From: Mya arenaria
Taxonomy: Eukaryota > Mollusca > Bivalvia > Myida > Myidae
NCBI RefSeq assembly: GCF_026914265.1
Contig: NC_069127.1
Span: forward strand, 19,585,045 to 19,649,044
Direction: 5' to 3'
Length of the DNA stretch: 64,000 nucleotides
Shown: positions 9,543-57,855 of the stretch, piece after piece
Position numbering within the stretch: position 1 is the stretch's first letter
Layout: each line of letters begins with the position of its first letter
Notes under the pieces: generated by a model
The model's input: only the letters and a program-made list of their open reading frames with translations
What the model was told of the DNA's origin: nothing
Databases searched by the model: none
Translations under genes and position numbers: made by a program

Positions 9543-12500
9543 TTACTGGTTGACCTTTGAACTGTTCGCATCAACAACTGCTGTAAAACCAACAATGAAT
9601 ACTCCGACAAGTTGAACATTGCCAGAAGGTTCGGAAAAATATTTCCACATCTTTTGTATGTTTCTTCTTCCTTTTACAGTCACAGAATGCGGAAAGTCCC
9701 ATCACAAATGAACTTGCAATCATGGAAATACCCGCGAAATGAAATGCTGATTGATAGTTTCCTAACGCGTCCTTTATCCACCCTGAAAATACAATATAAA
9801 ACATGGTTTTACACGACTAAGTTTATTAAAAATAATTTTTCTAGAATTTGTCAATGCAAAATTTACATAGATGTACGCATAGCCAAATTAAATAGCTCAA
9901 CTGTTCTTTTACACAAACGTGCCATTGTAGTCCGAGCAGAAACCCCGTCCACTGGAAAAGGAGGACCAGGCCGAATGAACTGGCTAGTTTGCCACTCCCC
10001 AGCAGGTCTACCAGAATCATGGGTCGAGCGCGTTATAAGAACCCGCGAAGAGCCCAAATATCACAGAGTAGGTTGCGAATTGCCAGTACTGGGAGGAAAA
10101 CCCGCTAGTTATATTTGCAATACCGCTGATGAATATAGCCGTCGTGTAAAAATATTTTCTACTATTTCGCAGTAGTTCGATATCACAAAGGAAACCAAAA
10201 GCGAGCCGCCCTACAATGTCGGCTATACCGGTGATTGAGAGAAGAAATGCGGCCCTTTGTGGAGTCACGTAATGCTCAATTGCTAGCGGCGGAATCATAA
10301 CGGTGGCGGGTGTATGGCCGCATGCCGCCGACATGATGGATACGCCGAAGCAAAGAAACAATGACCTCTTCAAAAGTGTGTAGTCTAAATATTCGCGGAA
10401 TCCCTTCTGTACGAATATCGAGTTTCAAGAGGTCTGCTGGTAGCGGGCGTCATTTGCGTTCATTCTCTACTTGTCTACCTCATCAAAAAAATCACTCTCA
10501 TTTCTACTTTGTTCATTAGCGTTCTTTCTCTGCGTGTCTTCTTTATCACAATAATCACTCTCATTTCTACTTTGTTCATTTGTAACAGTTTCAATGCAAT
10601 ATATATCATTTGCCCTTTCCTTACCCTCATTAATTGTTAACGCACTCTTGTCATTAGGCACATCTCTGAAGAACAACCCACAAATAATGATATTCACCAT
10701 TACACCCGCCATTATAAACATTGTGCATTTAAACTCAACATGTTTGAAGAGCATTTCAAGGAGCGGTGCAAACGCGAAGGTGCCAATACCGGCGCCGGCG
10801 ACCGCGATCCCCGTGGCGAGGGAGTGCAGCCTGCGGAACGACTGCCCAAGGATGACGATGGACGGCGTGTAAGCCAAAGACTTACCGATACCTGTCAAAG
10901 TAAAGAAACAAAATATAACGGCTAGGTAGACTGATTCTAGACATACTTGGAATTTCTGCTAGATCCGACGAGCTTAAACTTCGCATACCGGCTTTGATAA
11001 CTAGCTCGTAGTTAAATTACAACGTTATGAAAATGGTACAATACAATTACTTTATCCAATACCCTCGGAGTAAAAATATACATATGCGAGAAGCGCTCTT
11101 GTGTAATTTCAATAACTCGGGTTGTAAGAACATTAACTAGATGTGTTTAAAAACATTTGAAATCTGATCGCATTGTAGATAGTCAAACAATGCCTATAAC
11201 CTCTACATAACGGAAACCTTTATAAGAATTGAAAACCTTTGAAAGAATTATGGCATGAAAAAATATCAACATTTTGGAGAGTATGAAAACATCGACTAAC
11301 CCGCTAGTAAGCCGTATATAAGAAACATGTATTCCAGTCTCGGCATAAGACTAGTCAGTGTCCAGCCGGCCGCCGTCAAGACGCCGCCGACGACCACCAT
11401 CGTCTGACAGAAGAACCGAGAACTCAAGGCACTCGACACCGGACCTGTGTTAGAAATAACTTATGTTGAAAATGTAGAAAGAGGCATCATGGAGACAAAA
11501 CGAAAATGGTTAAATTTGGGCATTGGCGTTTTTAATCAATATAGTCCGCCTCTATTTTAAAAACTCCTCGGGTCGATCCGCGATCGTTGGCATATTCGAG
11601 TGGTCAATCCCCCAAAATGGACACCAGCATGATTTATAGTTTATTTTTATACAATAACCTTCGCCTTTTTTAAGTTCCCCAATTATTTTTAATTGTTACT
11701 TTATATTTACACGGTACCTAACAGCAGTCCCATGGTGTTTGCCATGGAGCCGACCCAGGCTGTTTTACCGGAGCTCTCCTGAAACACGTCGAGCAGCTAT
11801 ACGTATATCACACCAAAGCTGTTGACTGCTCCGCCGATCAGAAAGTTCAATACTGTTGCGCCTGTGAAAAATGTAAGTCTTATAAATGCTAGAAATTGAA
11901 AACATCTAGGTAATACCTAAGTTGAACATCGGTAAGATGTTCCGATTCATTGGGAAAATTATTCAATAGAATGCCAGAATTACTCCTGGAATGTTTCGTT
12001 CCATATTCAATGACTTAATGCGTACTTTGATAAGATGTACCTTTTGCGTTTTATTTTTTTTTAGGATTTTTGGGATAAGAGTGAGGTTTGTGCACATAAA
12101 CTGGTTTAAACCCCCAGTATATTTGCATTTTTCTGACCGTTACAAAGCTGTACCTAACAACCCTTGATAAACATACCTAGTTTTTTAAAGATAGTATGTT
12201 TGCACTGTGCTGTTTGTGGAGTTTTGTGCTGTTCTTCCATGTTTCTTGTTTGTGATTTTATGTTCTATGTCTTTGGCGTTTACCCAGTGCCATTAAACCG
12301 GGTTTATGTTTAAACTGTTTGCTACTGAGCTTGTTTCTTTAGCTTTTCGCATAAATATTAAGCGATAATTGATCCCGATTTTATTCCAAAAACATAATTC
12401 TAAAATACGTTGAAAAATCCTGTTAGTATTAAAGGTGGTTCAGTTTTGCCATTTTCAGCTATTCTTTTTTATCGCTTTGCCAGAACAAAAGACGATAATA

Positions 12501-13227
12501 ATAGTTTTCTCGTCTTTTAATGTTGAGACTAAAAAGCTGAACGGCAGCATAAAGAAGTGATATTATTTGAATAAGCATCGTTCTTCATCGTATTTCCTTT
12601 ATTTTAAAATCGCCTTCACAAGAACCCAACAACGAAAAGACGTCAAAACGCCAAACGTCGTCTTTTTGCTCTTACGCCCGTGAAACAATTAAAAAGACAT
12701 TATTGGCAGACACAGGCATGCAAGTAAAGTTACTTACAATATTGAAGATCTGGCCGAAAAATAGCGTAGATGATGTTAGATTTAAGGGGTAAAAATGATT
12801 TTAAGTCATCAATTATGTGACCAATTAATACACATGACTTACGGATGACAATGACCAAGCCCCAGCCGCCGTCGGGAGCGGAAGCACCAACGCAGCGAAG
12901 CTTCATGGTTTCATCAGGAGTGGGAGGACCAATTCGTCTGCGCTTTGTTGTATTTTCATGACCAAAGCGCTTGCGCTCGGTGCCATCATCCGGAGCGGTA
13001 GGACTAATTCGGCTGTGTTCTGTGGCATCATCCGGAGCGGTAGGACCAATTTGGCTGCGATATGTGGCATCGTTCGGAGAGATAGGACATATTCGGCTTC
13101 GCTCGGTGGCATCGTCCGGAGAGGTAGGACAAATTCGGCTGCGCTCAGAGGCATCGTCCTGTGCGGGAGGACCAATGCGATGGCGCTCAGTTGCATTTGT
13201 CGTGAAGGATTTCACATACATAACCAA
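9543..13227 (-). pseudogene. MCT1: SLC16-type transporter, five coding exons, disabled
   Basis: MFS transporter of the monocarboxylate family. Exons: 13227-12843, 11861-11718, 11444-11301, 10891-9919 and 9782-9543, with the last three of the internal boundaries in phase 1 as in MCT2. Exon 1 carries about eight copies of a 13-residue ERSRI(S/C)PT-type repeat. The family signature reads PDGGWGLV, so the second conserved Trp is Leu. Lesions I can read: a nonsense codon (TAG for Glu) at 11799-11797 in exon 2, TAG and TGA codons in the exon 4 loop (near 10470 and 10420), a one-base loss near 10020, a one-base gain in exon 5, and an altered last base of exon 4. Only about two 21-residue loop repeats remain. 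It pairs with PAL2 upstream. Pseudogene, high confidence. Confidence 0.85.
12050..12345. repeat. interspersed repeat, SINE-sized, in MCT1 intron 1
   Basis: About 290 bases, including GGTTTAAACCCCCAGTA and a tail near GTTTATGTTTAAAC, recur at 48630-48905 in an unrelated place (beyond truncated MCT4). Both copies read the same way. No ORF and no clear terminal repeats. I cannot name the family. Confidence 0.6.
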
Positions 13228-13263
13228 TTTTTAAAAGAAGGAAAGTATTGATATAGTTCAGCT

Positions 13264-13264
<1 letters not shown>

Positions 13265-13339
<75 letters not shown>

Positions 13340-14898: not shown

Positions 14899-15957
14899 TC
14901 AAGTCAGGGAAACATATATGTTTACATATCGAGTTATATATAAGGCAGTGAAGATGTCAAGGAGGACGTCCTCCACTGAGCGGCTCTGGACGGCCTTCAA
15001 AAGCCGTCCCAGCCAAGTGTCGATAGCCGGTTGCCCGCAGTAGAACGGAATGTTCAGCTCCTTCAGAATAAAGTTGTACATTCGGCTTGTACCTGAAGAA
15101 ATAAAAACAGATAAAATAACCATATGTAAGTTATGCTTAGATCGTTACGAGTGGTCGTTAATCACCAAACAGAATAATGTAATAATGTTGTTATTGCTTT
15201 ATATAACTATATTATTTTATCGTTTACCGGTAATTGGTTTATACATGTACCAACCGTTTTAAAATGATATAATGTGCAATATTATACTGTTACGTATCAC
15301 AAATTTTAAATAGGCAGTATCAGTACCTTTTCCCATGTATTTCGATGCATCCATTTCTCCGTTGCATGCCCGTTTGTAGATGTTTTGCATCCGTTCGTAC
15401 ACAACCATCTCCGAAGCAGCCTTTGTCACTTTCATTCCCGAGGCTTCCTTGAGAGCCACTATCCGTTCATCGCACAGGAACATAAGATCGTACCACTCCG
15501 TCTTCTCTAACAAATTGGTGGCCACCGGGTACTGTTCCCGGAGCTAATCGGCCTCCTCAATGGCGAAATTCCGTAGGAGTCGGAAGTCCACGGCCTGGGT
15601 GGTTAGACACAACAGGTTAGTTACCATCATCTGTACGATCTCAATCGCCTCCGCTGTCAGCCGCGCGTTTACCAGTGCCATCGAATTAACGGACTGGTTG
15701 TGTGTCTCAGCGCTTACCACGTGGTTGGTCATGGGGTTCACAAAGTGGTCAAGCTCCGACATGTACGAAGCCATCGCTGTATCGCAGCCTTTGAATCCAA
15801 AGTCGAGATTTATATCACATTCGCTGAGATTCGGAGGTAGTCCAAAGTTTAGTTTTACGTTCACAACTTCTTGAAACTGAGCAAGGAGCAGTTTCCCACA
15901 CACACCCAATAGTGATACGCCTACAGGCATCGACAAGAGTCTCGGCGACGGGCCCTG
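14899..15957 (-). pseudogene. PAL2: 3' half of an ammonia-lyase, pseudogene
   Basis: Retains the C-terminal exon (from 15092, SRMYNFILKELNIPF) and the 3' part of the long exon (15327 up to about 15907). The 5' side jumps from the [10 protein letters not shown] region, through a deletion, to a short piece of the TLVDACR region. It then runs into an inverted copy of its own 3' flank at 15958. The usual C-terminal tail is replaced (deletion near 14948). The catalytic Tyr, MIO triad and selectivity residues are gone, so it cannot be an enzyme. It lies 1.67 kb upstream of MCT1 on the same strand, the usual pair order. Confidence 0.85.
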
Positions 15958-16235
15958 AAAGCTCACAAAACGTTAACAATTATGTGATTTCGCTCTAACA
16001 TGACAGAGAAGTTATGATCTAAAGAGAACAAACTATGTTACACACGTGTTATGATGTTTATTCGATAATCTGTCTTGAAACTCGTACATTATTTTGACAA
16101 CATTCACAAGTTCGTTGGTGATAAATTATTAAGGTGTCAACAAGATAAGAAATTTCATGGAAATCCGTTTGGTGTTGTTTTTAATCAACTGTGTTTCCTT
16201 TTGTATTTGCTATTTTGAAATATCTTTATTAGAGT
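15958..16235 (+). repeat. inverted copy of a PAL 3' flank (inversion junction)
   Basis: This stretch is the reverse complement of the PAL2 3' flank at about 14640-14895 (for example CATGACAGAGAAGTTATGAT against its complement near 14840). PAL2 thus sits between two inverted 3' flanks. It marks where an oppositely oriented lyase copy was joined and lost. Confidence 0.75.
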
Positions 16236-16237
16236 TT

Positions 16238-18268: not shown

Positions 18269-20379
18269 ATGTCGGAAAGTCACGTAAAAACCACGCTTGC
18301 CATGATACAGGAGCGTAGAAAGATCAAGGACACGGTGATCTTAAACGGGAGACAACTCTCTATACCCGAGGTTCTCGGCCTTAGTGCCGACAGCGGGGTC
18401 AAGGTCGTTCTGGCCGAGGACGCTTTAAAGGAAATGGTTTCAAACCAAAAATACCTTAAAGAGAAATTGGACGAAGGGCTAATTGTGTACGGTATAAATA
18501 CAGGTTTTGGCGGGAGCGCAGAAGTAAGGTCATGTAAATTAGATGATGTACAAACAGCCTTAATTCGGCACGTGAATGCTGGAATGGGTCGAGTATTTCC
18601 CGTGCATTTGACACGCGCTGCCATGGTGACGCGTGCGAACTGTCTGACGAAAGGATACTCCGGCGTGCGACCTGACGTGCCCTAGGTGCTGGTGGAGTTG
18701 ATAAATCACGACATAACGCCCCGAGTCCCACTAAGAGGCTCGGTGAGCGCCAGCGGGGACCTGATGCCTCTTGGTTACATCGCAGCGGCTATGATTGGCC
18801 GCGCGGATTTGCAGGTCGTCCACGCTGGAGTTCAAACAACGTGTCCTAAAGCGCTCGAAGCGGTCCGAATTACGCCAATTACCCTGGGGCCTAAAGAAGG
18901 ACTGGCTATTATCAATGCGGATTCATTCGCTGCGGGTGTTTCCGCGCCAACTCTGTATGACGCCAATATTATGTTACTCCTAACTCAAGTGTGCACAGGA
19001 ATGTCAGTGGAAGCTCTTCACGGGAGAACGGAAAGTTTTCACCCTCTGATTCATGAGTGCCTACCGCATGTCGGCCAAAAGGAAATAGCTCGCAATATGC
19101 TACGCGTACTTGAAGACAGCCAGTTGGCGATTACCACTCTAGACATGCATCTTCCAGACAAGTATGGCGTCCTCAAGCAGGACAGATACAGTCTGAGGAG
19201 CTCGCCACAGTGGCTTGGGTCCGTCGCTGAGACTCTTGTCGATGCTTGTAGGCGTATCACCATTGAGCTGAATAGTGCCAATGATAACCCCATCATTGAC
19301 CATCGCACAAACATAATTGCACACGGAGCAAATTTCCAAGGAGAAACCATGTCAATCGCGATGGATCAGACCAGACAAGTGATGGGTGTGTGTGGGAAAC
19401 TGCTCCTAGCTCAGTTTCAAGAAGTTGTGAACGGAAAACTGAACTTTGGACTACCTCCGAATCTCAGCGGATGTGATATAAATCTCGACTTTGGATTCAA
19501 AGGCTGCGATACAGCGATGGCTTCGTACATGTCGGAGCTCGACCATTTTGTGAACCCCATGAGCAACCACGTGATAAGCGCTGAGACGCACAACCAGTCT
19601 GTTAACTCGATGGCATTGGTAAGCGCACGGCTGACGGCGGAGGCGGTTGAGATCGTACAGATGATGGTGACTAACCTGTTATGTCTGACCGCCCAGGCCG
19701 TGGACCTACGGCTCCTGAGGAATCTCGCCATGGAGGAGGCCGATAATCTCCGGGAACAGTACCCTGGGGCCACCAATTTGTTAGAGAAGACGGAGTGGTA
19801 CGATTTTATGTTCCTGTGCGACGAACGGATAGCGGCTCTCAAGGAAGCCTCGGGAATGCAGGGGACGAAGGCTGCTGCGGAAACGGTTGTGTATGAACGG
19901 ATGCGAAACCTCTATAAACGGGCATGTAACGGAGAAATGGATGCATCGAAATACATGGGAAAAGGTACTAATACTGTCCATATTAATTTGTGATACCTTT
20001 TATGGTTTAATATTGCGCATTGTATCATTTTCAAACGGATCGTATCAACCTATTGCCGTTAAACGATAAAATTATATAGTAATTAAATTAACAACAGCAT
20101 AAATTACATTATTTTGTTAGATGAAAACGAACACTCGTGAATAAATTAGCATATCTTACTTATGGTAATTATATTTGTTTTATTTCTTCAGGTACAAGCC
20201 GAATGTACAACTTTATTCGGAAGGAGCTGGACATTCCGTTTTACTGCGGGCAACCGGCTATCGACACGTGGCTGGGACGAATTTTACAAGCCATACAGAG
20301 CCGCTCAGTGGAGAACGTCCTCCTTGACATTTTTACTTCCGTCTCGCCACCATCCAGACAGAACAGCCAAACCGCTTAA
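18269..20379 (+). pseudogene. PAL3: full-length ammonia-lyase with one nonsense codon
   Basis: Exons 18269-19964 and 20192-20379 join at AAAG|GT..CAG|GT to give 627 codons, like PAL5. The MIO triad, catalytic Tyr74, QDRYSLR, NDNPIID and HNQSVNSM are all present, and the selectivity pair is His101-Val102. The only lesion I find is codon 139 (18683-18685), TAG where PAL1 and PAL5 have CAG (Gln). It lies about 22 codons before the MIO triad, so any product would be inactive unless the stop is read through or polymorphic. The intron and 3' flank also nearly equal PAL5, so the copy is young. MCT2 follows 1.77 kb downstream. Pseudogene, null allele, or base error in the assembly. Confidence 0.8.
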
Positions 20380-22146
20380 ATTCATCCCTTAAAATATTAA
20401 TATTATGTAAAAGCAAGGGTTTCCCTGAACTGAAAGCTCACTTAACGTTAACAGTAATTTGGTTCCGCTTTTACTAGACAGAGAACTTATGACCTTAAGA
20501 GACCAGAACATATATGTTTATTTGAAAATATGTCCTTAAACTCGTACAATATTTTGACAACATTCACAAGGTCGTTGATTGATTAATTATTAAGGTGTCA
20601 AAAAGATAGACTGTCTTTCAGGGAAATCCGGTTGGTTTTATTTATGTTTATGTTAATATTTATAACTGCGTTTTTTTTTCATTTTGAAATATCTTTATTA
20701 CATGCCCTATCGATATTTTATGGTGTGACATCAAATACTGTGACCTCAAGTATTTCAAGAATCATAGCGTCTTTTAAGGCAAACCTGGACAAGAGATCTC
20801 TCGACTACCTGATTTTTTTCGATCGAACTATTTTCGCATTTATTGAATGACATTTTTCAAGTTTGTTCATCAGATTTCTGTACAAACATTATTTATTATT
20901 TATAGTTTTACTGTTTATCTGACTAATAAAATATCTAAAACATATAAGTGTGTATTTGTTAATGTAAAACGACTCGTTAAATTTCGGTTTACAAAATATA
21001 AATTTTGCATTTGTCATGAGAAGATATGTTGTCCATAAAACACATACAATTATAAACACTAGAAGTTAAGTAAATATATATTATCATAGTCGTAGAATAA
21101 TATGTAGCAGCTAGCTGCCAACAGCATATCAGCTTATTGCCAGCAGCTTGCTGCTATGCCGCTGTGCTGCTAACTTCACGCACACACGCAAGCGTTGTTT
21201 TTAAGTAAACATTTTCATACAAAAGTATGACAGCGAAACTATCAGAAAATGTGCCTTTCAATCCGTAATGAGAGAGAAAATCGAGAGTTCGCTTTCAATG
21301 TCCACTGTGAACGTACACAAGCGAGTTTGCGAAACACGACGTGTGCTTGCAGGTGTAGCTACACATACAGGCAAAAGTTGCAGTTGAGTATAACACTAGC
21401 TTGTCTAACTTATCTTTAAACTTGAAGTTATAGGCTCGCTGATCAATTCCCTCGTGCTACCGTGTAAAAAAATCGAAATGTGTACAATATACACATACCT
21501 GGGTGAGAAAGCACACATGTAAACATACCCGTACATGAAGTGTCCGCAATCCCTCTAGCGTGTTTGTAGATGGTCATCCTTGTGTTTTTTCTCGAAGATA
21601 TCATTTTTTCCTTCTAGAGGTGGCATGCGTGAACAACATGGATATAATAGTACTGTTGAATGTATCCGCTTCCTACCCAAAATTACGGATTCATGCCCTG
21701 AAATCATTGTTTAAGAAAACTCCGAACTATGGTGGATTTGTTTACTTGCGTGATGTAATTGTCTTGGTTAAATCCATGTACATAGCTCCCAATATCTTTA
21801 GCATATATAATTTAAGGCGTTACACATGAACCAATTTTAAGGGATCTGTTTTAACATGAAATGTATAGCACACGAAAACGACTGCTGATAAAAACACAGA
21901 CCAGTTCGTTTATGGTTGTGTGTTTTTTTTAGTCCACCTAAACTACGAAAGAAAATGTAATTAATTGAAAGGTAACTATATATCAAGGTGACCCAAGAAT
22001 AAACTAACCAAATATTCCAAGTCCACAGGCTATCTTAAAAAGCGAAGTTAATTTTGGGTCAATTCCATAACAAGAGATCCGTTACATCAAGCTGAACTAA
22101 AAATAGAAAAAAAAAATCATTATTTTCCTTCTTTTAAGAACTGGTT
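20380..22146. other. PAL3-MCT2 intergenic region
   Basis: No gene seen. Inverted near-copy of 32421-30810. Contains the GTGTAGCTACAC palindrome at 21353-21364 and a CAG/CTG-rich stretch near 21108-21175. Short open frames here have no recognisable product. Confidence 0.55.
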
Positions 22147-25100
22147 ATGTGTGTGCAATCCGACGCGGCGAATAACACAGAGTGCCAGTGCACTGGTTCT
22201 CCCGAACAGAACGATGCCACAGAGCGCAGCCGAATTAGTCCTACCACTCCGGAAGATGGCACCGAGGGTAGCCGAATTAGTCCTACCGCTCCGGACAATG
22301 CCACAGAGCGCAGCCGAATTAGTCCTACTGCTCCGGACGATGGCACCGAGCGCCATCAATTCGGTCCTCCCGCTCATGACAGTACAAAGCTCAAACGAAT
22401 TGGTCCTCCCACTCCCGATGGAACCATGAAGCTTCGCTGTGTTGGTCCTTCCGCTCCGGACGGCGGCTGGGGCTGGGTGATTGTTATATGTAAGTTATGT
22501 GTATTAATTGGTCACATGATTAATGACTGAAAAAAATAATCTTCATTTTAATCGGTATACGAAACATCGTCTTCGTTATTTTTCGGCCAGATCTTCAATA
22601 TTTTAAGTAGTTTAACCTGCATGCTTGGATTTTTCAATACATTTTGGAAAATTTGCATTACAATTTGGTCTCAATTATCGCTTTGGTCATTCAATTGGGG
22701 ACGCAAATTTCCAGGAGTAATTCTTGCATTCTTTTGAATACTTTTTTCTATTCGAAATGAATCAGAACATCCTAACCGTGTTCGACTTAATTGTTAACTA
22801 AATGTTTTCAATTTCAAGCAATTCTAAGACAAATACGACTTAATTTTTCACAGGCGCAACAGTGCTGAACTTTCTGATCGGCGGAGCAGTCAACAGCTTT
22901 GGTGTGATATACGTAGAGCTGCTCGACGTGTTTCAGGAGAGCTCCGGAAAAACAGCCTGGGTCGGCTCCATGGCAAACGCCATGGGACTGCTGTTAGATA
23001 ACGTGTATACATTTAAGTCACACATGAAAAATAATTGGGGAATTTTCAATAGATTGCGACGATAAGTGTATAAATATATGCTTTTAATCATGCTGGTGTC
23101 CATTTTGGGTGTTGACCACTCAAATACTCCATCGATCGTGGACACGAGGATCTCTTAAAATAGAGACGGACACATGATCGTAGTATTTATTGACAAAAAA
23201 CGCCATTGCGCTAATTTAATGTTTTTCGTTTTGTTTCCATGATGCCTATTTCTACATTTACAACATAAATTATTTCTAACACAGGTCCGGTGTCGAGTGC
23301 CTTGAGTTCTCGGTTCTCCTGCCGGACGATGGTGGTCGTCGGCGGCGTTTTGACGGCGGCCGGCTGGGCACTGACTGGTCTTATGCCGAGACTGGAATAT
23401 ATGTTTCTTACATACGGCTTACTAGCTGGTTAGTCGATGTTTTCATAATCTCCAAAATTTATTCATTGTCTCCATTCTGGTTTAATTTTATTAGTCTTAT
23501 AAAGGTTTTCAATTTTTTATAACGGCTCCCACAATGTGGAGCGAATAGACATTATATGTCTTACTACAATGCAATCAGATTTCAAATGTGTTTTTACGCA
23601 CATTCTAGTAACTGCACCCACAAGCCGAGTTATTGATATTACACACGAGGGCTTAACGAGTGTATATTTTGAAACCGAGGGTATTGCATTAAATAATGCA
23701 TAGCAGAACACAACGAAAACACTGTAGTGCAGTCCCTGTTATCACAGATTATAAGCGTATTTCAATATTGCCATAATTAGCAGAAATTCCAAGTATGCCT
23801 AGAAATCATTTCACCTAGCTCAAGCATAAATATAACTGTACTGGAATACTATCGTTTAAAAACTAGGGAAATTGTCAATCGAAACTGTTATGCCACATTT
23901 CTGACCATTCTACAAACATTCCGACCTGTTTGCCACACCTCTGACCATTCTACATACATTCCGACCTGTTATGCCACACCTCTGACCATTCTACATACAT
24001 TCCGGCCTGTTATGCCACACCTCTGACCAGTCTACATACATTCCGACATGTAATGCCACACCTCTGACCATTCTACATACATTCCGACCTGTTATACGAC
24101 ACCTCTGACCATTCTACATACATCCCGACCTGTTATGCCACATCTCTGACCATTCTACATACATCTCGAACTGTTATGCCACACCTCTGACCAGTCTACA
24201 TACATTCCGACCTGTTATGCCACACCTCTGACCATTCTACATACATCCCGACCTGTAATGCCACACCTCTGACCATTCTACATACATTCCGACCTGTTAT
24301 GCCACACCTCTGACCAGTCTACATACATTCCGACCTGTTATGCCACACCTCTGACCATTCTACATACATCCCGACCTGTTATGCCACATCTCTGACCATT
24401 CTACATACATCTCGACCTGTTATGCCACACCTCTGACCATTCTACATACATTCCGACCTGTTATGCCACACCTCTGACCATTCTACATACATCTCGACCT
24501 GTTATGCCACACCTCTGACCATTCTACATACATCCCGACCTGTTATGCCACACCTCTGACCATTCTACATACATTCCGACCTGTTATGCCACACCTCTGA
24601 CCATTCTACATACATCCCGACCTGTTATGCCACACCTCTGACCATTCTACATACATTCCGACCTGTTATGCCACACCTCCGACCATTCATACATTCAGGC
24701 CTGTTATATCACACTTCTGACCATTCTACATACATTCAGACCTGTCTGACCATTCTACATACATTCAGACCTGTAATGCCACACTTCTGACCATTTTATA
24801 TACATTCCGACCTGAAATGCCACACCTCTGACCATTCTACATACATTCCGACATGTAAAGCCCTGTAATGCCACACTTTTGACCATTCTTTATACATTCC
24901 GACCTGTAATGCCACACCTCTGACCATTCTACATACATTCCGACCTGTTATGCCACACCTCTGACCATTCTACATACATTCAGGCCTGTTATTCCACATC
25001 TCGGACCATTCTACATACATTCAGGCCTGTTATGCCACATCTCTGACCATTCTATATACATTCCGATCTGTTATGCCACACCTCTGACCATTCTACATAC

Positions 25101-36050: not shown

Positions 36051-36086
<36 letters not shown>

Positions 36087-36092
36087 TTTCTT

Positions 36093-42700: not shown

Positions 42701-43012
42701 TATTATGTAAATATTATCATTGGTGAGTTATAATCTTCTAGAACTTACATTCCTAGCCTACTCGATGCAAAAGGTATTTTTAAAATTCATATTGGTTCTA
42801 ATGTTCAATTTCAAGTTATGTTGAATGATGATAAAAAACATTCCAACAATACACTAGTAACCTTAAGTGCATACAAACGTATAAAGCACGATTTATAGTT
42901 AATTTAATTTCTTATTCTACTAAACAGGTTTCGATTTTACTTTTATCCTCCTTAACCGCGATTACAATGCAAGTGAAAACATATAGTAAAACAGTTTATG
43001 AGAATTCTGGAA

Positions 43013-45492: not shown

Positions 45493-47601
45493 TTAAGCGG
45501 TTTGAGCTGTTTTGTCATGATGGTGGCTAGACGGAAGTGAAGATGTCAAACAGGACGTCCTCCACTGAGCGGCTCTGGACGGCCGTCAAAAGCCGTCCAA
45601 GCCAAGTGTCGATAGCCTGTTGCCCGAAGTAGAACGGAATGTCCAGCTCCTTCCGAATAAAGTTGTACATTCGGATTGTACCTGAACAAATAAAAAACAC
45701 ATGTAATAACCATATGTAAGTTACGCTTAGATCGTTAATAGTGGTCGTTTATCAGCAAACAAAATAATATTATACTGTTGTTTTGCTTTATATAACTACA
45801 TAATTTAATCAATTACCGGTAATTTGTTTATACCAACCGTTTTAAAATGAAACAAATGTGCAATATTAAACTGTTGCGTATCACACATTTTAAATGGTCA
45901 GTATCAGTACCTTTTCCCATGTATTTCGATGCATCCATATCTCCGTTGCATGTCCGTTTGTAGATGTTTCTCATCCGTTGGTACACCATCATCTCTGCAG
46001 TTTCCTTCGTCACCTGCATTCCTGAGGCTTCCTTGAGAGCCGCTATCCGTTCGTCGCACAGAAACATAAGATCGTACCACTCCGTCTTCTCTAACAAATT
46101 GGTGGCCTCCGGGTACTGTTCCCGGAGCTTATCGGCCTCCTCCATGGCGAGATTCCGCAGTCGTCGGAGGTCCACGGCCTGGGCGGTTAGACACAACAGG
46201 TTAGTCACCATCATCTGTACGATCTCAACCGCCTCCGCCGTCAGCCGCGCGCTTACCAGTGCCATTGAATTAACGGACTGGTTGTGTATCTCAGCGCTGA
46301 TCACGTGGTTGCTCATGGGGTTCACAAGGTGGTCAAGCTCCGACATGTACGACGCCATCGCTATATCGCAGCCTTTGAATCCAAAATCAAGATTTATATT
46401 ACATCCGCTGAGATTTGGAGGTAGTCCAAAATTTAGTTTTACGTTCACAACTTCTTGAAACTGAGCAAGGAGCAGTTTCCCACACACACACCCATTACTT
46501 GTCTGGTCTGATCCATCGCGATTGACATGGTTTCTCCTTGGAAATTCGCTCCGTGTGCAATGGTGTTTGTGCGATGGTCAATAATTGGGTTATCATTAGC
46601 ACCATTCAGCTCAATGGTGATACGCCTACAAGCATCGACAAGAGTCTCGGCGACGGGCCCAAGCCACTGTGGTGAGCTCCTCAGACTGTATCTGTCCTGC
46701 TTGAGGAAGCCATACTTGTCTGGAAGATGCATGTCGAGAGTGGTAATCGCCAACTGGCTGTCCTCTAGCACGCGTAGCATATTGCAAGCCACTTCTTTTT
46801 GCCCGACATGTGGTAGCATTTCATGAATGAGTGGGTGAAAACTTTCCGTTCTCCCGTGAAGAGCTTCCACTGACATGCCTGTGCAAACTTGAGTTAGGAG
46901 TAGCATAAGGTTGGCGTCATACAGAGTTGGCGCGGAAACACCAGCAGCGAATGAATTCGCATTGATAATAGCCAGTCCTTCTTTTGGTCCCAGGGTAATT
47001 GGCGTAATTCGGACCTCTTTGAGCGCTTTAGGACACGTTGTTTGAACTCCAGCGTGGGTGACCTGCAAATCTGCGCGACCAATCATAGCCGCTGCGATGT
47101 AACCCAGAGGCATCAGGTCCCCACTGGCGCTCACCGAACCTCTCAGTGGGACTCGGGGCGTAATGTCGTGGTTTATCAACTCCACCAGCAACTGGGGCAC
47201 TTCAGGTCGCACGCCGGAGTAACCTTTCGCCAGACAGTTCGCACGCGTCACCATGGCAGCGCGAGTCAAATGCACGGGAAACACTCGACCCATTCCAGCA
47301 TTCATAAACCGAATTAAGGCTGTTTGTACATCATCTGTTTTGCATGACCTTACTTCTGCGCTCCCGCAAAAACCTGTATTTATACCGTACACAATAAGCC
47401 CTTCGTCCAATTTCTCTTTAAGGTATTTATAGTTTGAAACCATTTCCGTTAAAGCGTCCTCGGCCAGAACGACCTTAACCCGGCACTAAGGGCGAGAACC
47501 TCGGGTATAGAGAGTTGTCTCCCGTTCAAGATCACCGTGTCCTTGATCTTTCTACGCTCCTGTATCATGGCCAGCGTTGTCTTAGCGTGACTTTCCGGCA
47601 T
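45493..47601 (-). pseudogene. PAL6: diverged ammonia-lyase with Phe-Met selectivity pair, frameshifted
   Basis: Exons 47601-45911 and 45681-45493 in the PAL5 layout. The MIO triad (SVSASGD), catalytic Tyr and QDRYSLR are kept. At 47308-47303 the codons TTT-ATG give Phe-Met (RFMNAG) where PAL1, PAL3 and PAL5 have CAC-GTG (His-Val). Nearby the PAL5 residues Gly81 and Leu91 are Cys and Thr. Lesions: a 7-base deletion near codon 45 (about 47478), a 2-base CA gain in the run near 46490, and a 1-base gain near the C-terminus (about 45503). The TATA/leader-exon region is deleted: from about 47850 the flank jumps to far-upstream sequence. So it is now a pseudogene, but it seems to have diverged in substrate choice first. 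Confidence 0.85.
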
Positions 47602-49042: not shown

Positions 49043-52000
49043 CTGCCATTGGCGATCCGAGCTGAAAACCCGTCCCCTGAAAATGGAGGGCCAGGCCGAA
49101 TGAACTGGTTAGTTTGCCACTCTCGAGCAGGTCTACCAGAATCACGGGGGTGAGGGCGTTGAAGAAACCCGCGAAGAGCCCAATTATCACAGAGTAGGTC
49201 ACAAATTGCCAGCACTGTGTGGAAAACCCACAAGTTAAATTTGCAATACCGTTGATGAATATAGATGCCATGTGCCTGTTATTTCGCAGTATATCGATAT
49301 CACAGAGGAAACCGAAAGCGAGCCGCCCAACAATGTCTGCTATCCCGGTAACTGAGAGAAGAAAGGCGGCCCTTTGTGGAGTCACGTGATGCTCTATGGC
49401 TAGCGGCGGGAGCATTACGGTGGCGGGTGAATGGCCGCATGTCGCCAACATGACGGATATGCCGAAGCAAAGAAACAATGGTCTCTTCAACAGGGTGTAG
49501 TCCAAATATTCGCGGAACCCCTTCTGTACGAATGTCGAGTTTCCAGAGGATTGTTCGTAGCGGGTGTCATTTGCATTCTTTCGCTGCATGTCTTGTTCAT
49601 AACAATAATCACTCTCATTTCGACATTGTCCATTTGTGATCTTTCTCTGCTTGTCTTGTTCATCACAATAGTCACTCTCATTTCGACATTGTTCATTTGC
49701 GTTCTTTGTCTGCATGTCTTGCTCATCACAATAATCACTCTCATTTCGACATTGTCCATTTGTGATCTTTCTCTGCTTGTCTTGTTCATCACAATAGTCA
49801 CTCTCATTTCGACTTTGTTCATTTGCGTTCTTTGTCTGCATGTCTTGCTCATCACAATAGTCACTCTCATTTCGACATTGTTCATCTGTGATCTTTCTCT
49901 GCTTGTCTTGTTCATCACAAAAGTCACTCTCATTTCGACATTGTTCATTTGTGATCTTTCTCTGCTTGTCTTGTTCATCACAAAAGACACACTCATTTCG
50001 ACATTGTTCATTTCTGGTTTTTCCCTGCATGTCTTGTTCATCACAATAATCACTCTCATTTCGACATTGTTCATTTTTTATCTTTCTCTGCTTGTCTTGT
50101 TCATCACAATTATCACTCTCATTTCGACTTTGTTCATTTGCGTTCTTTGTCTGCATGTCTTGCTCATCACAATAATCACTCTCATTTCTAATTTGTTCAT
50201 TTGCGTTCTTCCTCTGCACGTCTTGTTCATCACAATAATCACTCTCATTTCTACTGCGTTCATTTGTAACAGTTTCAATGAAATATATATAATTTGCCCT
50301 TTCTTATCCTCATCAACTGTGAACGCTTTCTTGTCATTAGGCACATCTCTGAAGAACAACCCACAAATACTGATATTCACCATTACACCCGCCATTATAA
50401 ACAGTGTGTATTTAAATTTAACATGTTTGAAGAGCATCTCAAGGAGCGGTGCAAACGCGAAGGTGCCAATACCGGCGCCGGCAACCGCGATCCCCGTGGC
50501 GATGGAGTGCCGCCTGTGGAACCACTGCCCAAGGATGATGATTGACGGCGTATACGCCAACGACTTACCGATACCTGTGAAACAACATTGTCATCAATAG
50601 GAGGAACTTTTGAAATTGTTTAGTACAATATTCTGTCATGTTTGTTGGAATGTATGTAGAATGGTCAGAGGTGTTGCATTACATGTCGGAATGTATGTAT
50701 AATGGTCAGAGGTGTGGCATAACAGGTCGGAATGTATGTAGAATGGTCAGAGGTGTGGCATAACAGGTCGGAATGTATGTAGAATGGTCAGAGGTGTGGC
50801 ATAACAGGTCGGAATGTATGTAGAATGGTCAGTGGTGTGGCATAACAGGCCTGAATGTATGTAGAATGGTCAGAGGTGTGGCATAACAGGCCTGAATGTA
50901 TGTAGAATGGTCAGAGGTGTGGCATAACAGGTCGGAATGTATGTAGAATGGTCAGAGGTGTGGCATAACAGGCCTGAATGTATGTAGAATGGTCAGAGGT
51001 GTGGCATTAAAGGTCGGAATGGTCAGAGGTGTGGCATAACAGGTCGGAATGTATGTAGAATGGTCAGAGGTGTGGCATTAAAGGTCGGAATGTATGTAGA
51101 CTGGTCAGAAGTGTGGCATAACAGGTCGGGATGAATGTAGAATGGTCAGAGGTGTGGCGCTACAGGTCGGAATGTATGTAGAATGGTCAGAGGTGTGGCA
51201 TAACAGGTCGGAATGTATGTAGAATGGTCAGAGGTGTGGCATAACAGGTCGGAATGTATGTAGAATGGTCAGAGGTGTGGCATTACAGGTCGGAATGTTT
51301 TTAAAATGGTCAGAAAAGTGGCAAAACAGTTGCGATTGACAATTACTCAGTCCCCTTGGATTTTAAACGATGTTATTACAGTACAGTTATATTTATGCAT
51401 GAGCTAGGTGGAATGATTCCTAGGGTTACTTCCTGCACCACAGTGTTTTCTTTGTGTTCTGCTATGTATAATTTAATGCAATACCATCGGTTCCAAATAA
51501 TACACTCGCTAATTCTCATTTGTTATGTCATTAACTCAGCTTGTGGGTGCAGTAACTAGAATGTGCGTAAAAACACATTTGAAATCTGATTGCATTGTAG
51601 TAAGAAAAATAATGTCTATACTTTCCACAAAGCGGGAGCCGTTATAAAAATTGAAAACCTTTATAAGACTTATAAAATTAAACCAGAATAGAAACAATTT
51701 TGGAGAGTATGAAAACCTCGACTAACCAGCTAGTAAGCCGTATGTAAGAAACATATATTCCAGTCTCGGCATAAGACCAGTCAGTGCCCAGCCGGCCGAC
51801 GTCAAGACGTCGCCGACGATCACCATCGTCCGGCAGGAGAACCGAGAACTCAAGGCACTCGACACCGGACCTGTGTTAGCAATAACTTATGTTGTAAATG
51901 TAGAAATAGGCATCATGGAAACAAAACGAAAATCATTAAATTAGGGCAATGGCGTTCTTTGTCAATAAATACTACGATCATGTGTCCGCCTTTATTTTAA

Positions 52001-52886
52001 GAGATCCTCGAGTCGATACACGATCGATGGCGTATTTGAGTGGTCAACACCCAAAATAGACACCAGCATGATTTTTAGCATATATTTATACAATAATCTT
52101 CGCAATCTATTAAAAATTCCACAATTATTTTAAAGAGTTACTTAAATGTATTCACGGTACCTAGCAGCAGTCCCATGGCGTTTGCCATTGATCCGACCCA
52201 GGCTGTTTTTCCGGAGCTCTTCTGAAACACATCAAGCAGCTCTACGTATATCACACCAAAGGTGTTGACTGCTCCGCCGATCAGAAAGTTCAACACTGTT
52301 GCGCCTGTGAAACATTATGTTGTATTAGACTTAATATTACTAGAAATTGAAAACATAGAATAAGCATTTAAGTCGAACACGGGTAAGATGTATTAATTCA
52401 TTTAAAATTTGCGTCCCCAATTGAATGACCAAAGCGATTATTGAGACCAAATTGTATTGCAAATTTTCCAAAATGTATTGAAAAATCCAAGCATGCAAGT
52501 TAAGCTACTTGAAATATTGAAGATCAGGCCGATAAAAACGAACAGGATGTTACATATAGCGATAAAAATGAAGAAAGTCTTCTTAAGTCATGAACAATGT
52601 GACCAATTAATACACATAACTTACATATAACAATGACCCAGCCCCAGCCGCTGTCCGGAGCGGAAGGACCAACGTAGCGAAGCTTCCTAGTTCCTTTGGG
52701 AGTGGGGGGACCTATTCGTTTGCGCTTTGTTGTATTGTCATGAGCGGGAGGACCGAATCGATGGCGCTCGGTGACAACGTCCGGAGCGGTAGGGCTATCT
52801 CGGCTGCGCTCTGTGGCATCGTTCTGTGCGGGAAAACCAGTGCGGTGGCGCTCTGTATCATTCGCCGCGTCGGATTGCACACACAT
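49043..52886 (-). pseudogene. MCT4: SLC16-type transporter lacking its last exon
   Basis: Exons 52886-52625, 52304-52161, 51870-51727 and 50574-49043, with canonical splice sites throughout. Exon 1 has only three or four N-terminal repeats but keeps PDSGWGWV. Exon 4 carries about eleven 21-residue Cys/acidic loop repeats, the longest set in the window. A one-base loss near 50300 (AAGAAAGGGC against AAGGAAAGGGC in MCT2) shifts the frame just before the repeats. A short in-frame deletion removes part of the membrane-segment region (RNNRHMASIF). Exon 5 was not found downstream. Pairs with PAL7, 1.64 kb upstream. Confidence 0.8.
50635..51330. repeat. 41-bp minisatellite in MCT4 intron 3
   Basis: About 17 copies of the complement of the unit in MCT2 intron 3 (GGTCAGAGGTGTGGCATAAC within each). 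Same intron, different copy number. Confidence 0.95.
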
Positions 52887-54523
52887 TACCAGTTCTTAAA
52901 AGAAGGAAAATAATGATTGTTTTTTTGTTATTTTTTTTTAGTTCAGCTTGATGTAACGGACTTCTTGTTATGAAATGGACCCACAATTTACTTCGCTTTT
53001 ATAGATTGCCTGTGGTTTTGGAATATTTGGTTAGTTTATTCTTAGGTCACCTTAATATATAGTTACATTTTCATTAGTTATCTTTAATTTCGTAGTTTAA
53101 CTGGATTCATGGAAATAGTTTTGAACCTAAAAACAACCATAAACGAACTTGTCTGGGTTTTTTTATCAATAGTCGTTTCCGTGTTCTATGCATTTCATTT
53201 ATAAAACAAATACCTTAAAATTGGTTTATGTGTAACTTTTTAAATGATATATCCTAAAGATATTGGGAGTATGTACATGGAATTAACAAGACAATTACAT
53301 CATGCAAGTAAAATATCCACCATAGTTGGGATTTTTCTTAAACAATGATTTCAGGGCATGAATCCGTAATTTTGGGTAGGAAGCGGGTACATTTATCAGT
53401 ACTATTATATCCATGTAGTGCACGCATGCTACTGCATACACATTTCGATTTTTTACAAGGTACCACGAGGGAATTAATCAGCGAGTCTATAACTTCAAGT
53501 TTAAAGATAAGTTAGTTAAGCTAGTGTTATACTCAACTGCAACTTTTACCTGTATGTGTAGCTACACCTGCAAGCACACGTTATGTTTTGCAAACTCGCT
53601 TGTGTACGTTCACAGTGGACATTGAAAGCGAACTCTTTCGATTTTCTCTCTCCGTACGGGTTAAAAGGCACATTTTCTGATAGTTTCGCTGTCGTTCTTT
53701 TGTATGACCATGTTTACTTAAAAAACAACGCTTACATTCCAAAATTGTTATACTAAAGCAACGTCGTTGATTTAATCGCGGAGATAGGCGATGTGCACTG
53801 AATGACAATCGGTCATTGAATTTGTATACATTTTTATCATGACAAATGCAAAATTGATATTTTGTAAACCGAAATCGAATGAGTCGTTTTACATAAACAA
53901 ATAACCACTTATATTTTTTAATAGTTTTATTAGTCGGATAAAAAGCAAAAGTTATAAATAATAAATTATATATGTACAGAAATCTAATGAACAAAATTGA
54001 AAAATGTCATTCAATAAATGCAAAAATAGTTCAATCGAAAAATTATTTTCAGGTAATTGTCGAGAGATCTACTCCCCAAGTTGATATATTGTCCAAGTTT
54101 GCCTTAAAATTCTTAAAATAACCATACTTGAGGTCACAGTATTTGATGTCACACCATAACAGATCGATAGGGCATGTAATAACGATATTTAAAAAACAAC
54201 AAAAAAACAACAACGCAGTTATAAATATAAACATAAATAAAATCAACCGGATTTCCCTGAAAGACAGTCTATCTTGTTGACACCTTAATAATTAATCAAC
54301 CAACGACCTTGTGAATGTTGACAAAATATTGTACGAGTTTAAGGACATATTTTCATATAAAAACAATTAAACACATGTTATATGTTCTGGTCTCTTTAGG
54401 TCATAAGTTCTCTGTCTAGTAAAAGCGAAACCAAATTACTGTTAACGTTAAGTGAGCTTTCAGGTAAGGGAAACCCATGCTATTATAAAATATTAAATAT
54501 TTTAAGGTATTCAAGCCACGAAT
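52887..54523. other. PAL7-MCT4 intergenic region
   Basis: Counterpart of 30810-32421, with the GTGTAGCTACAC palindrome at 53556-53567. No gene recognised. Confidence 0.5.
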
Positions 54524-57500
54524 TTAAGCGGTTTGGCCGTACTGTCTGGATGGTGGTGAGACGGAAGTAAAAATGTCAAGGAGGACGTCCTCCACTGAGC
54601 GGCTCTGGACGGCCTTCAAAAGCCGTCCCAGCCATGTGTCGATAGCTGGTTGCCCGCAGTAGAACGGAATGTCCAGCTCCTTCCGAATAAAGTTGTACAT
54701 TCGGCTTGTACCTGAAAAATTAAAACAAATATAATTACCATAAGTGCGTTGTGCTAATTTCTCCACGGGTGGCCGTTTATCATTAAACAAAATAATGTAT
54801 TTTATGCTGCTGTTGCTTAGGCCAATCCTTTTTTATTTTTTGGTTTACAAGAATTTTTGGAAAAAATGTCCACCGGGTGGTCGAAAAAAAAAAAAAAAAA
54901 AAAAAAGGACAAAAGTCACAAAACATACTCTTTAAGGGTGAAAATCAGAGAACAACAATAAAAACATTGAAAATTTATATCATTTACTTGACATTTTAAA
55001 TTTTAAAACTGCTATTAATGCATGTTTTAATACACTCAAAGTTTCAAAGTTCTAATTTCTAATTAAACACACAGTGAAATCTTACATACTGTGCATATAA
55101 AACATCAATGAAATTGACTATAAAACATGTTTACATGTATAAACTACACTTTTTATCAAAGATACATTGACTATTACTCAGCAGGACATTTGTTTAGCTT
55201 TAATGGTATGCTAAAGGAAAAGTGAATGCAGAACACTTAAAAACTGACCAATATTAAATTGGAAAAAAAGGGAAGGCAAATTTTACGCTTTAAAATACAC
55301 AATAATTGCACTGTATTAAGACAATACATTACATTTTCTAAGCATTGTGTCAGTTATTTCAATATTGGAAAATGTCAATAAAGTGAAATAATTTCCAATT
55401 TTGTAAATAAGGAAGTAATATTGTATGAAGGCATTGTGCTTTAATATTGTGCAAACAATTCCTGAAAAACTTAAAACCAAACTAGACCTAGATTTGAGTT
55501 TTAATAACCTTTACCATGCGGGGTCCTAGTTGTGTGTAACCCAATCCATGCTAAGTCCGAATATTTTCGGACCGGGATATTCACCATGCGATGTTCAGCA
55601 AATCCATTTCAAATTCAAATCTTGCAGCAAATTACCACATCAGTACATAAAAATCACATAGCAAAATAATAAATCTAGCATGTGACTTAACTTTATGTAC
55701 CAATGATAGTAACAGTGAAATCCATAATTATTTATCGGATATTTTCATCTTCTCCCAACTCCGCCATTTTGTGTATCATGCGTTCACAGGGCATCTATAC
55801 TTCATGATTGTTTATTTTTCATTTTAAAGAGAATTCCTTGGTTACAACAACAAATCTCATTTATAGTGAAATATCAAGTTCATAACAAATTAAAATGGAC
55901 TTATTCATAATAGTTTTCCGTGTTGTTTTATCTTAATGTTTTGCACACAACTCCTGGCATTAGTAAATGGCATTGACACATGTGTTCAACTCTTTCATTG
56001 TTTTTACTATACTATTAACCCAAACATGAATAAACATGTAATCTAGAATAAACACAAGCTTTTACAGTGACTCAATGACAAGTATTTCCAAACCAGTTTG
56101 TGATTTAAAATCCATAAACACAACCGACCGAACTTGTGAAACTAGATCACCGGTGTCAACTTAGAAATTTTACTTTCGATTTCACCACTCACACTAAGTG
56201 CACTGTTATTTGATATTTAACCATAAAATGTTATAAAATATTTTTCTCGCACATAATTTATAGATATTTGTGTCTACTTATTCGATGGCAGCCGCTGCCA
56301 CTTATTTTTCATCTATAAACAACACTATTTTCATGACCTAAATTTGCGGGGAAAAACAACAATCACGTGACAGTTATTGTTTGTGTCGGCTGTTAAATTT
56401 GCCAATGTATTTTGCTATTGTTATTTTAACAACTCCTGCATATTTAACTTAATTATTTCATACAAAGAGTGACTGCTATCGTCAATTTCGCCATTGCCAA
56501 CGGCGCTGCCATAACAGTTTACTGGCTCACATGTTATCACTATAAATCGGCGAATACGGCTACGGAACAACAAACCAGTCGAGATCTACTGCATTCGTAC
56601 TCTTATCTGTTCGTTTTTCTTTCGTTTCGCACCAAAATCAATACGGTCGGGAAAATAATCTTGAAAAAAAAGTGAAATTCATTTTTTTATTTTTTTTGTA
56701 CTTTTCGGAAAATTAGACCCGCCGGTTTTGTAAACCAATTTATATAAAAGTAGTGGCCTTAAGTTACTATATAATTTTATCGTTTAACGGCAACAGGTTG
56801 ATATGATCCGTTTGAAAATAATACAATGCGCAATATTAAACCAGGTATCACAAGTTAATTTGGACAGTATTAGTACCTTTTCCCATGTATTTCGATACAT
56901 CCATTTCTCCGTTACATGCCCGTTTGTAAAGGTTTCGCATCCGTTCGTACGCAATCATCTCCGCGGCAGCCTTCGTCCCCTTCATCTCCGAGGCTTCCTT
57001 GAGAGCCGCTATCCGCTCGTCGCACAAGAACATAAGATCGTACCACTCCGTCTTTTCTAACAAAGTGGTGGCCTCCGGGTACTGTTCCCGGAGCTCATCG
57101 GCCTCCTCCATGGCGAGATTCCGTAGGAGGCGGAGGTCCACGGCCTGGGCGGTCAGACACAACAGGTTAGTCACCATCATCTGTACTATCTCAACCGCCT
57201 CCGCCGTCAGCCGCGCGCTTACCAATGCCATCGAATTAACGGACTGGTTGTGTGTCTCAGCGCTTATCACGTGGTTGCTCATGGGGTTCACGAAATGGTC
57301 AAGTTCTGACATGTACGAAGCCATCGCTGTATCGCAGCCTTTGAATCCAAAGTCGAGATTTATATCACATCCGCTGAGGTTGGGAGGTAGTCCAAAGTTC
57401 AGTTTTCCGTTCACAACCTCTTGAAACTGAGCTAGTAGCAGTTTCCCACACACACCTATTACTTGTCTGGTCTGGTCCATGGCGATTGACATGGTCTCTC

Positions 57501-57855
57501 CTTGGAAATTTGCTCCGTGTGCAATGGTGTTTGTGCGATGGTCAATGATTGGGTTATCATTGGCACTATTCAGCTCAATGGTGATACGCCTACAGGCGTC
57601 CACAAGAGTCTCGGCAACGGACCCAAGCCACTGTGGCGAGCTCCTCAGACTGTATCTGTCCTGCTTGAGGACGCCATACTTGTCTGGAAAATGCATGTCT
57701 AGAGTGGTAATCGCCAACTGGCTGTCTTCAAGTACGCGTAGCATATTGCGAGCGATTTCCTTTTGGCCGACATGCGGTAGGCATTCATGAATCAGTGGGT
57801 GAAAACTTTCCGTTCTCCCGTGAAGAGCTTCCACTGACATTCCTGTGCACACTTG
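54524..57855 (-). pseudogene. PAL7: 3' half of an ammonia-lyase with a transposon in its intron
   Basis: C-terminal exon 54711-54524 is intact (SRMYNFIRKELDIPFYCG to the stop). The long exon survives only from 57855 to 56877 (about CTGMSVEALHG onward) and is open throughout. The intron between them is enlarged by a 1.9 kb element at 54820-56758. At 57855/57856 the coding sequence is cut and joined to lyase far-upstream DNA (matches 17480 reversed). An open frame happens to continue about 80 codons past the join, but those residues are not lyase. It has lost Tyr74, the selectivity pair and the MIO triad. Pseudogene, young by its open frame. Confidence 0.85.
54820..56758. mobile_element. non-autonomous PIF/Harbinger-like DNA transposon
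   Basis: A 1939-base insertion in the PAL7 intron, flanked by TTA on each side (54817-54819 and 56759-56761). Ends are GGCCAATCCTTTT and the complement of GGCCACTACTTTT; both carry TTGGTTTACAA about 20-25 bases in. A TTA duplication and GGCC ends fit Harbinger. The uninterrupted intron of PAL5 (about 32701-32730) shows the empty site. No transposase seen; a 68-codon frame at 56469-56675 has no recognisable product. Confidence 0.75.

Follow-up and report, generated by a model that had tools for sequence, protein, structure and literature searches.

The 64,000-nucleotide stretch of Mya arenaria DNA analysed here (the window) takes in part of an array of about 92 kb on one chromosome, in which a PAL/TAL-type lyase gene is present as twelve copies or fragments. 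The units of the array were lettered; unit D and part of unit F lie outside the window and were read from fetched flanks (Table 1). In all six units that keep exon 1 of an SLC16-type transporter gene (MCT), this gene lies 3' of the lyase on the same strand, and the distance from the lyase end to the start of MCT exon 1 is 1.90 kb in D, 1.92 kb in F, about 1.7 kb in G, 1.76 kb in H, 1.61 kb in J, and 1.63 kb in L. The four lyase-to-transporter joins described in the initial annotation are all present, with coordinates that confirm them: PAL2>MCT1 is unit G, PAL3>MCT2 is unit H, PAL5 followed by an orphan exon is unit J, and PAL7>MCT4 is unit L. Three units count against a simple pairing rule: unit B retains a lyase end and exon 2 with no MCT match between that end and the next lyase piece, and in units E and I the lyase is a fragment that lacks exon 2. 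Most copies in the array are broken. Only three lyases (D, F, and J) are intact, and both genes are intact in one unit only, D, just upstream of the window. Beside the intact lyases of F and J, the adjoining transporter is reduced to its first exon, and thus a complete carrier alongside is not needed for a lyase copy to survive. Across the window, a tRNA scan and an Rfam scan at the gathering threshold returned no matches, and ten other open frames had no Pfam match over the cut-off.

Table 1. Coordinates of lyase and transporter features by unit (window positions; negative values lie upstream of the window; e, exon)
Unit	Feature	Position	Strand	Details
F	Lyase exon 1	1..1581, runs on to -114 upstream of window	-	intact 627 aa frame
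F	Lyase exon 2	ends at -530	-	upstream of window
F	MCT exon-1 orphan	-2449..-2802	-	outside window
G	SLC16-type gene (MCT1)	9504..13229	-	e1 about 13229-12845, e2 11861-11718, e3 11444-11303, e4 10891-9920, e5 9782-9504
G	Lyase	14941..15963	-	3' half only, residues about 355-616; exon 2 part 15111-14941
H	Lyase	18269..20379	+	exon 1 18269-19964, 227 bp intron, exon 2 20192-20379
H	SLC16-type gene (MCT2)	22139..27220	+	e1 22139-22489, e2 22854-22997, e3 23285-23428, e4 25503-26729, e5 26934-27220
I	Lyase fragment	29624..30340	-	short inverted piece 30224-30340 (+)
J	Orphan MCT exon 1, downstream of lyase	30464..30817	-	
J	Lyase	32422..34534	-	exon 1 34534-32839, 229 bp intron, exon 2 32609-32422
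K	MCT remnant, downstream of unit	42966..43759	-	parts of e4 and e5
K	Lyase	45506..47601	-	frameshifted; exon 2 part 45694-45506
L	SLC16-type gene (MCT4)	49043..52894	-	e1 52894-52625, e2 52304-52161, e3 51870-51727, e4 50574-49043
L	Lyase	54527..57855	-	without first 239 residues; exon 2 54712-54527

The second coding exon of the lyase follows a GT-AG intron of 225-229 bp in the four full-length copies, and the protein is therefore 627 aa long. Unit J is the sole complete and intact copy inside the window and carries the MIO motif Ala-Ser-Gly; the lyase of unit H has a single in-frame stop, TAG, at codon 139. Comparison of the three intact copies gives a dN/dS of 0.07-0.11, and the lyase is under purifying selection. 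The transporter has five exons, one of which, covering TM1-TM2, is short and easily overlooked, and the placement of the transporter's start codon is tentative. The transporter of unit G is probably decayed, because its aligned blocks contain one stop codon and the length of e5 does not keep the frame of copy D. In unit H, the donor after e2 is AT rather than GT and the acceptor before e5 is GG rather than AG. In unit L, the length of e4 breaks the frame relative to copy D and e5 was not found. The public gene model of unit L, P0021 (LOC128237618), has an extra small exon at 60400-60356 and splices lyase exon 2 to MCT e2, a join that leaves the MCT exon in the wrong reading frame.

As the initial annotation had proposed, the enzyme is of PAL/TAL type. 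The lyase scores 461 bits against Pfam PF00221, and among NCBIfam profiles the phenylalanine ammonia-lyase model reaches 501 bits compared with 296 and 306 bits for two histidase models. The same order of models was obtained for P0001, and the profile phe_am_lyase was matched by 19/19 animal rows. The equivalog cut-off of the NCBIfam PAL model (519.15 bits) is narrowly missed at 501.2 and 512.4 bits, and we therefore name the protein PAL/TAL-type and not a certified PAL. Among solved chains, plant PAL/PAM gave the best match (396 bits) and chains named histidine ammonia-lyase gave at most 259 bits. The AlphaFold model of the lyase (mean pLDDT 82) aligns with PAM/PAL at a TM of 0.79-0.85. In the tree, 27 animal rows form one clade (bootstrap 100, SH-aLRT 98) that unites the Mya lyase with other lophotrochozoan lyases; fungi lie next to it (99/91), fungal PAL being nearest among the rows used, and plants fall outside. 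A faster tree recovered an animal clade of 50 rows with an SH-aLRT of 99. Compared with plant and fungal PAL/TAL (TIGR01226, PF00221), the Mya lyase has the same fold, the Ala-Ser-Gly triad of MIO, and the Tyr/Arg/Asn/Lys/Glu catalytic positions, but it belongs to a separate animal clade, is 41-44% identical to the rows listed, and is shorter than their 671-796 aa.

The catalytic residues are intact. At the catalytic positions, the Mya lyase has A161, S162, G163, Y74, Y307, R310, N355, K411, and E439. Across the animal set, rows with letters at the MIO triad hold Ala in 82/84, Ser in 83/84, and Gly in 84/84, and the equivalent of Tyr-74 is present in all 78 rows. At the position governing Phe/Tyr selectivity, the Mya lyase has His-101, as do the fungal PAL/TAL rows, whereas most plant PALs have Phe. 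In plant and bacterial enzymes, His here marks the use of Tyr. The substrate of the Mya lyase is very probably an aromatic amino acid, which it would deaminate; Tyr (or Tyr and Phe) is favoured over Phe alone because of this His, and the product would be p-coumarate and/or cinnamate plus ammonium. The selectivity residue varies in the animal set, being His in 48 of 80 rows and another residue in 32 (Leu in 20, Phe in 7, others in 5), and it is therefore unlikely that the whole animal clade has a single common substrate.

The array transporter is of SLC16 type. PF07690 is over the cut-off for the exon-4 frames of H and L, and TIGR00892, with a cut-off of 586 bits, scores lower, at 170.6 and 88.7 bits, for these frames that are single exons. 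Against solved chains, the joined MCT protein scores 180 bits with MCT2, 165 with MCT10, and 154 with MCT1. Like MCT1/2 and MCT10, the array carrier has the PDGGWGW start, and it differs from them by 21-residue repeats in the central loop and 14-residue N-terminal repeats. Asp-309 and Arg-313 of MCT1, both in TM8, are kept, but the TM1 Lys-38 of MCT1 is replaced by Asn, as in MCT10, and the carrier thus lacks the signature of the proton-coupled, lactate-type MCT1-4. With 100 of 433 candidates scored, the search of the Mya genome gave 112 MCT matches, and all those above 48% identity lie inside the array, such that this carrier subtype was found only there.

Compared from unit to unit, the spacers between lyase and transporter are 68-98% identical over aligned pieces of 230-1949 bp and are homologous in all six units with MCT exon 1. 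Therefore, the Mya repeats are block duplications of one ancestral pair. The initial annotation had read the repeated pairs as a unit, and while the repetition is real, its four Mya pairs are not independent support for that unit since they descend from one duplicated block. Moreover, the transporters of D and H are nearly identical (dS 0.028) and the lyases of the same units differ at a dS of 0.085, a mismatch indicating that the lyase and the transporter of a unit have not always had a common history. Roughly 0.3 kb of spacer seemed more conserved and was considered as a conserved element, but this was rejected: sliding identity rose to no sharp peak, and other parts of the array contain weaker matches to it.

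Gene linkage was seen in Mya and in one mytilid-like public gene model, P0085 (762 aa), in which a lyase is followed by an MFS transporter, the order and orientation being those of the Mya pair. The transporter part of this model reaches 443 bits against array copy D and at most 241 bits against 16 other Mya SLC16 loci. As for pairing beyond duplication within Mya, this one predicted gene model, if right, joins the same two genes and would be the one independent indication that the adjacency is conserved.

The reading we prefer, at a probability of about 0.55, is that the array consists of duplicated two-gene blocks in which a working Tyr/Phe ammonia-lyase stands beside an old neighbouring carrier, with which it may cooperate. 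The pair would have formed once and then been copied as a block; it probably arose before clams and mussels split, an age that we infer. In the model that we think most likely, the carrier would either export the aromatic acid product or import an aromatic amino acid to supply the lyase. Substrate, direction of transport, and joint function are what we infer for this pair, and the joint function is plausible. It is also possible, at clearly less than even odds, that the genes are neighbours by inheritance only, both being functional and brought together by an old chance linkage and block duplication, with a carrier unrelated to the lyase product. The homologous spacers reduce the six Mya units to one event, the lyases of F and J are intact beside a lone MCT exon, and most of the array is decaying, all of which suits such an origin. 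However, chance linkage does not readily account for the same pair, order, and orientation in the mytilid-like model, nor for a carrier to which, among the candidates scored, no Mya match elsewhere exceeds 48% identity.

Other alternatives concern the nature of the lyase. An aminomutase making beta-tyrosine or beta-phenylalanine is improbable, although aminomutases and ammonia-lyases share one type of active site and the closest solved structure by both sequence and fold is the Taxus phenylalanine aminomutase. That enzyme sits among plant PALs in the tree and has Cys, not His, at the selectivity position, and the 501 bits of the ammonia-lyase profile compare with 399, 269, and 252 bits for aminomutase models. 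An expanded ordinary histidase is very improbable indeed and we reject it: the superfamily and cofactor motif are common to both, but animal histidase (HAL) profiles score the lyase about 200 bits lower than the PAL profile, and solved structures and tree also place it with PAL. The grouping with histidase envisaged in the initial annotation as a contrary outcome was thus looked for and was not found. On this point, profiles and solved structures outweigh the tree because the histidase row in it is a fragment, 27% filled, with a long branch. Furthermore, a PF00221 search of the Mya genome gave 19 matches, 15 in this array on C6 and four in histidase-like exons on C14, where a separate histidase-like gene lies at C14:5583359-5589187. 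Exon 1, as a long uninterrupted frame, looks prokaryote-like at first sight, yet bacterial, algal, or symbiont contamination, or recent transfer from bacteria, has a negligible probability and is rejected in its turn. The intron is spliceosomal, with the acceptor in 10/10 printed copies and the donor in 9/10 (the printed stretch of C missed it), the contig is 83.6 Mb long, relatives occur in other bivalves, Lingula, and annelids, and prokaryote matches are at most 34% identical among the best 80 of 212 confirmed stretches. The lyase is an animal gene, as its intron, contig, and animal clade agree.

In two papers tracing where this enzyme family came from (PMC9002059, PMC2657906), the available text places histidase with animals and PAL with plants and fungi, and neither text contains the words mollus or annelid. 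Among the literature matches listed, titles and abstract openings named no mollusc PAL or TAL gene, which is a weak test of absence. A broader picture, which we put forward tentatively and at rather less than an even chance, is that of a separate lophotrochozoan PAL/TAL branch, neighbour to the fungal branch and older than the split of molluscs, brachiopods, and annelids, from which bivalves would keep a two-gene unit with a dedicated carrier of aromatic acids or amino acids. A phenylpropanoid acid step made by animals would then start and finish at a single locus, with read-through transcripts as a possible link.

Whether animals themselves synthesise cinnamate or coumarate can be tested directly, given a conserved animal branch whose active site is intact. 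Our guesses at its role include UV screening, shell or byssus phenolics, defence, and the disposal of amino acids. If the enzyme and carrier are truly a conserved pair, they would constitute an unusual metabolic gene pair in an animal genome.

Lyase pieces of the array extend from about -31461 as far as 57855, while transporter (MCT) pieces begin at about -34373, giving a span of some 92 kb on NC_069127.1 (C6; 83.6 Mb, with the window at bases 19585045-19649044) in a genome of 1.216 Gb in 18 contigs. The initial annotation had claimed a same-strand spacing from lyase to transporter, and this holds well, as order, strand and a distance of 1.6–1.9 kb are common to the six units that contain transporter exon 1. 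Because the spacers of these units can be aligned with one another at 68%–98%, the array is the product of block duplication. Over 335 codons, 7 synonymous changes separate the transporters of units D and H, which are alike in amino acid sequence there (dS 0.028), whereas their lyases show a dS of 0.085; parts of units have therefore also been copied or converted separately. The stretch shared by the two open frames without Pfam matches in the table is possibly a dispersed repeat.

Units of the array and associated features (window positions, to which 19585044 is added for positions on C6; negative values lie in the upstream flank)
Feature	Position	Strand	Description
Unit D			lyase and transporter both intact
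Copy D transporter e1	-11269..-10919		standard splice sites
Copy D transporter e2	-10554..-10411		standard splice sites
Copy D transporter e3	-10143..-10000		standard splice sites
Copy D transporter e4	-7920..-6757		standard splice sites
Copy D transporter e5	-6552..-6266		standard splice sites
Units F, J			lyase intact, orphan transporter exon 1, then partial lyase in each
Unit J lyase	34534-32422	-	intact; 627 aa, two exons, 229 bp GT-AG intron
Unit H			lyase with TAG; transporter with two lost splice sites
Units G, L			lyase 5'-truncated; transporter decayed
Units K, C, A			lyase broken; transporter remnants
Unit B			lyase remnant; no transporter seen
Units E, I			fragments
P0088 (Mya public model), unit F/E	-2448 to -3707 (C6:19582596-19581337)		transporter exon 1 joined to partial lyase
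Open frame between units F and G	5349-5762	+	sperm-tail PG-rich (SHIPPO) repeat match, 30 bits (cut-off 20)
Open frame	8517-8843	+	no Pfam match over cut-off; ~30 residues in common with next
Open frame	27926-28306	-	no Pfam match over cut-off
63 bp (21 aa) repeats	25750-26253; 49441-50370		transporter central loop; number varies between copies
41 bp minisatellite	23808-25536; 50496-51440		mostly within e3-e4 intron, units H and L
More distant SLC16 gene	C6:19174523-19175825		35-48% identity; about 375 kb from array

Four lyase copies are full-length, of which D, F and J retain reading frame and splice sites while H carries one stop. Pairwise comparison of the three intact copies gives dS of 0.055–0.077, dN of 0.006–0.007 and a ratio of 0.07–0.11, and the lyase protein has therefore been under selection since duplication. 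The closest public protein among the matches listed, P0001 (Mya arenaria LOC128239212), is 98% identical to unit J and matches the upstream copy D at 99.8% over exon 1. The intron acceptor (TTCAG|GTA) was seen in all ten copies printed and the donor (AAAG|GTAC or close) in nine, the stretch for C having missed the donor site; the exons lie about 0.2 kb apart, or 2.2 kb in unit L. Several public lyases from other bivalves and annelids diverge from the family at exactly the residue of the Mya intron site, which would fit gene models that either skip an intron located there or run on into it.

The lyase resembles PAL/PAM more than histidase by profiles, solved structures and fold alike, falling 7–18 bits short of the NCBIfam PAL cut-off. 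The possibility that a tree would group it with histidase was not borne out, as the animal clade joins fungi and then plants. The more careful of two trees (48 rows, LG+C20; 29 of 76 rows dropped, including long-branch Helobdella, a second Owenia sequence and P0057, and a clam histidase fragment added) unites its 27 animal rows in a single clade (100/98) with fungi adjacent (99/91) and plants outside; bacterial rows fall opposite with the histidase fragment, which fills 27% of the columns and has a very long branch. A faster tree of 76 rows recovers an animal clade of 50 rows (SH-aLRT 99), 18 of them with a named species and 32 without, and fungi next (87). The best prokaryotic relatives (best 80 of 212) are 29%–34% identical. 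A protein search with the lyase gave 7781 matches of 7998 scored, of which 120 were listed; a species was shown for 24 of the first 86, every one a bivalve, an annelid or the brachiopod Lingula. Passages of two papers on the family's origin assign histidase to animals, and PAL to plants and fungi (PMC9002059, PMC2657906). Some array-type lyases are already named phenylalanine ammonia-lyase in public databases, so that the gene is already annotated, and, among the papers listed, a literature search found no account of a mollusc PAL or TAL gene or of its function.

The copy D transporter has five exons in a single frame, with the start codon and a possible upstream exon uncertain, and belongs to SLC16 (best matches MCT2, 180 bits; MCT10, 165; MCT1, 154; MCT8, 139). 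In the same alignments, lysine 38 in TM1 of MCT1 is replaced by asparagine, as in MCT10 and unlike MCT1, while Asp-309 and Arg-313 in TM8 of MCT1 are retained. The array transporter thus has some features of amino-acid-type carriers and some of the acid type, and its sequence does not tell which substrate it carries. A genome search with the copy D protein (100 of 433 candidates scored) returned 112 matches, and all those above 48% identity lie on C6 at 19551159-19637349. Transporters D, G and L show dN/dS of 0.24–0.38 over about 330 codons, with one stop codon in G skipped.

One predicted gene model suggests that the pairing extends beyond Mya. This model, P0085 (762 aa), runs from a C-terminal lyase part into an SLC16 transporter, which implies that the two genes are same-strand neighbours in that assembly. 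Two Mytilus trossulus proteins share 88%–89% identity with its lyase half. The transporter half of P0085 is missing precisely the 48 residues encoded by Mya exon e2, otherwise aligning to residues 1–419 of 454 at 39% identity (repeat loop as gaps), and scores 443 bits against copy D versus at most 241 against 16 other Mya SLC16 loci picked from the genome search. Among Mya public models, P0021 joins lyase exon 2 of unit L (to 54542) out of frame to transporter e2 (52306-52235), and the chimeric P0088 may result from faulty annotation or represent a new fusion gene. Contigs of equal length for the lyases of one species suggest linked copies within Mytilus trossulus (P0006, P0009, P0011), Pinctada (P0022, P0025), Lingula (P0029, P0039) and Owenia (P0041, P0083).

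From neighbourhood and family, we would guess that the carrier exports the aromatic acid product or imports the amino acid. The strongest point against a required partnership is that two of the three intact lyases adjoin only an orphan carrier piece; a single intact carrier, that of unit D, might nevertheless suffice for the three lyases, so that the partnership may or may not be a needed one. The lyase step itself, in which the MIO cofactor would catalyze ammonia loss from tyrosine and/or phenylalanine, is well supported by sequence. Among the 88 rows taken as animal by search rank, catalytic positions are retained with few exceptions (for example MIO Ala to Ser in 2/84; Gln-304 to Glu in 4/88 and Arg in 1/88). 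At the Phe/Tyr selectivity position (80 rows), histidine is the commonest residue (48 rows), followed by leucine (20) and phenylalanine (7), and 5 rows have something else. Histidine at this position accompanies tyrosine use in plant and bacterial enzymes. By that rule, the Mya lyase (His-101) is predicted to use tyrosine or mixed substrates, and some relatives would use others.
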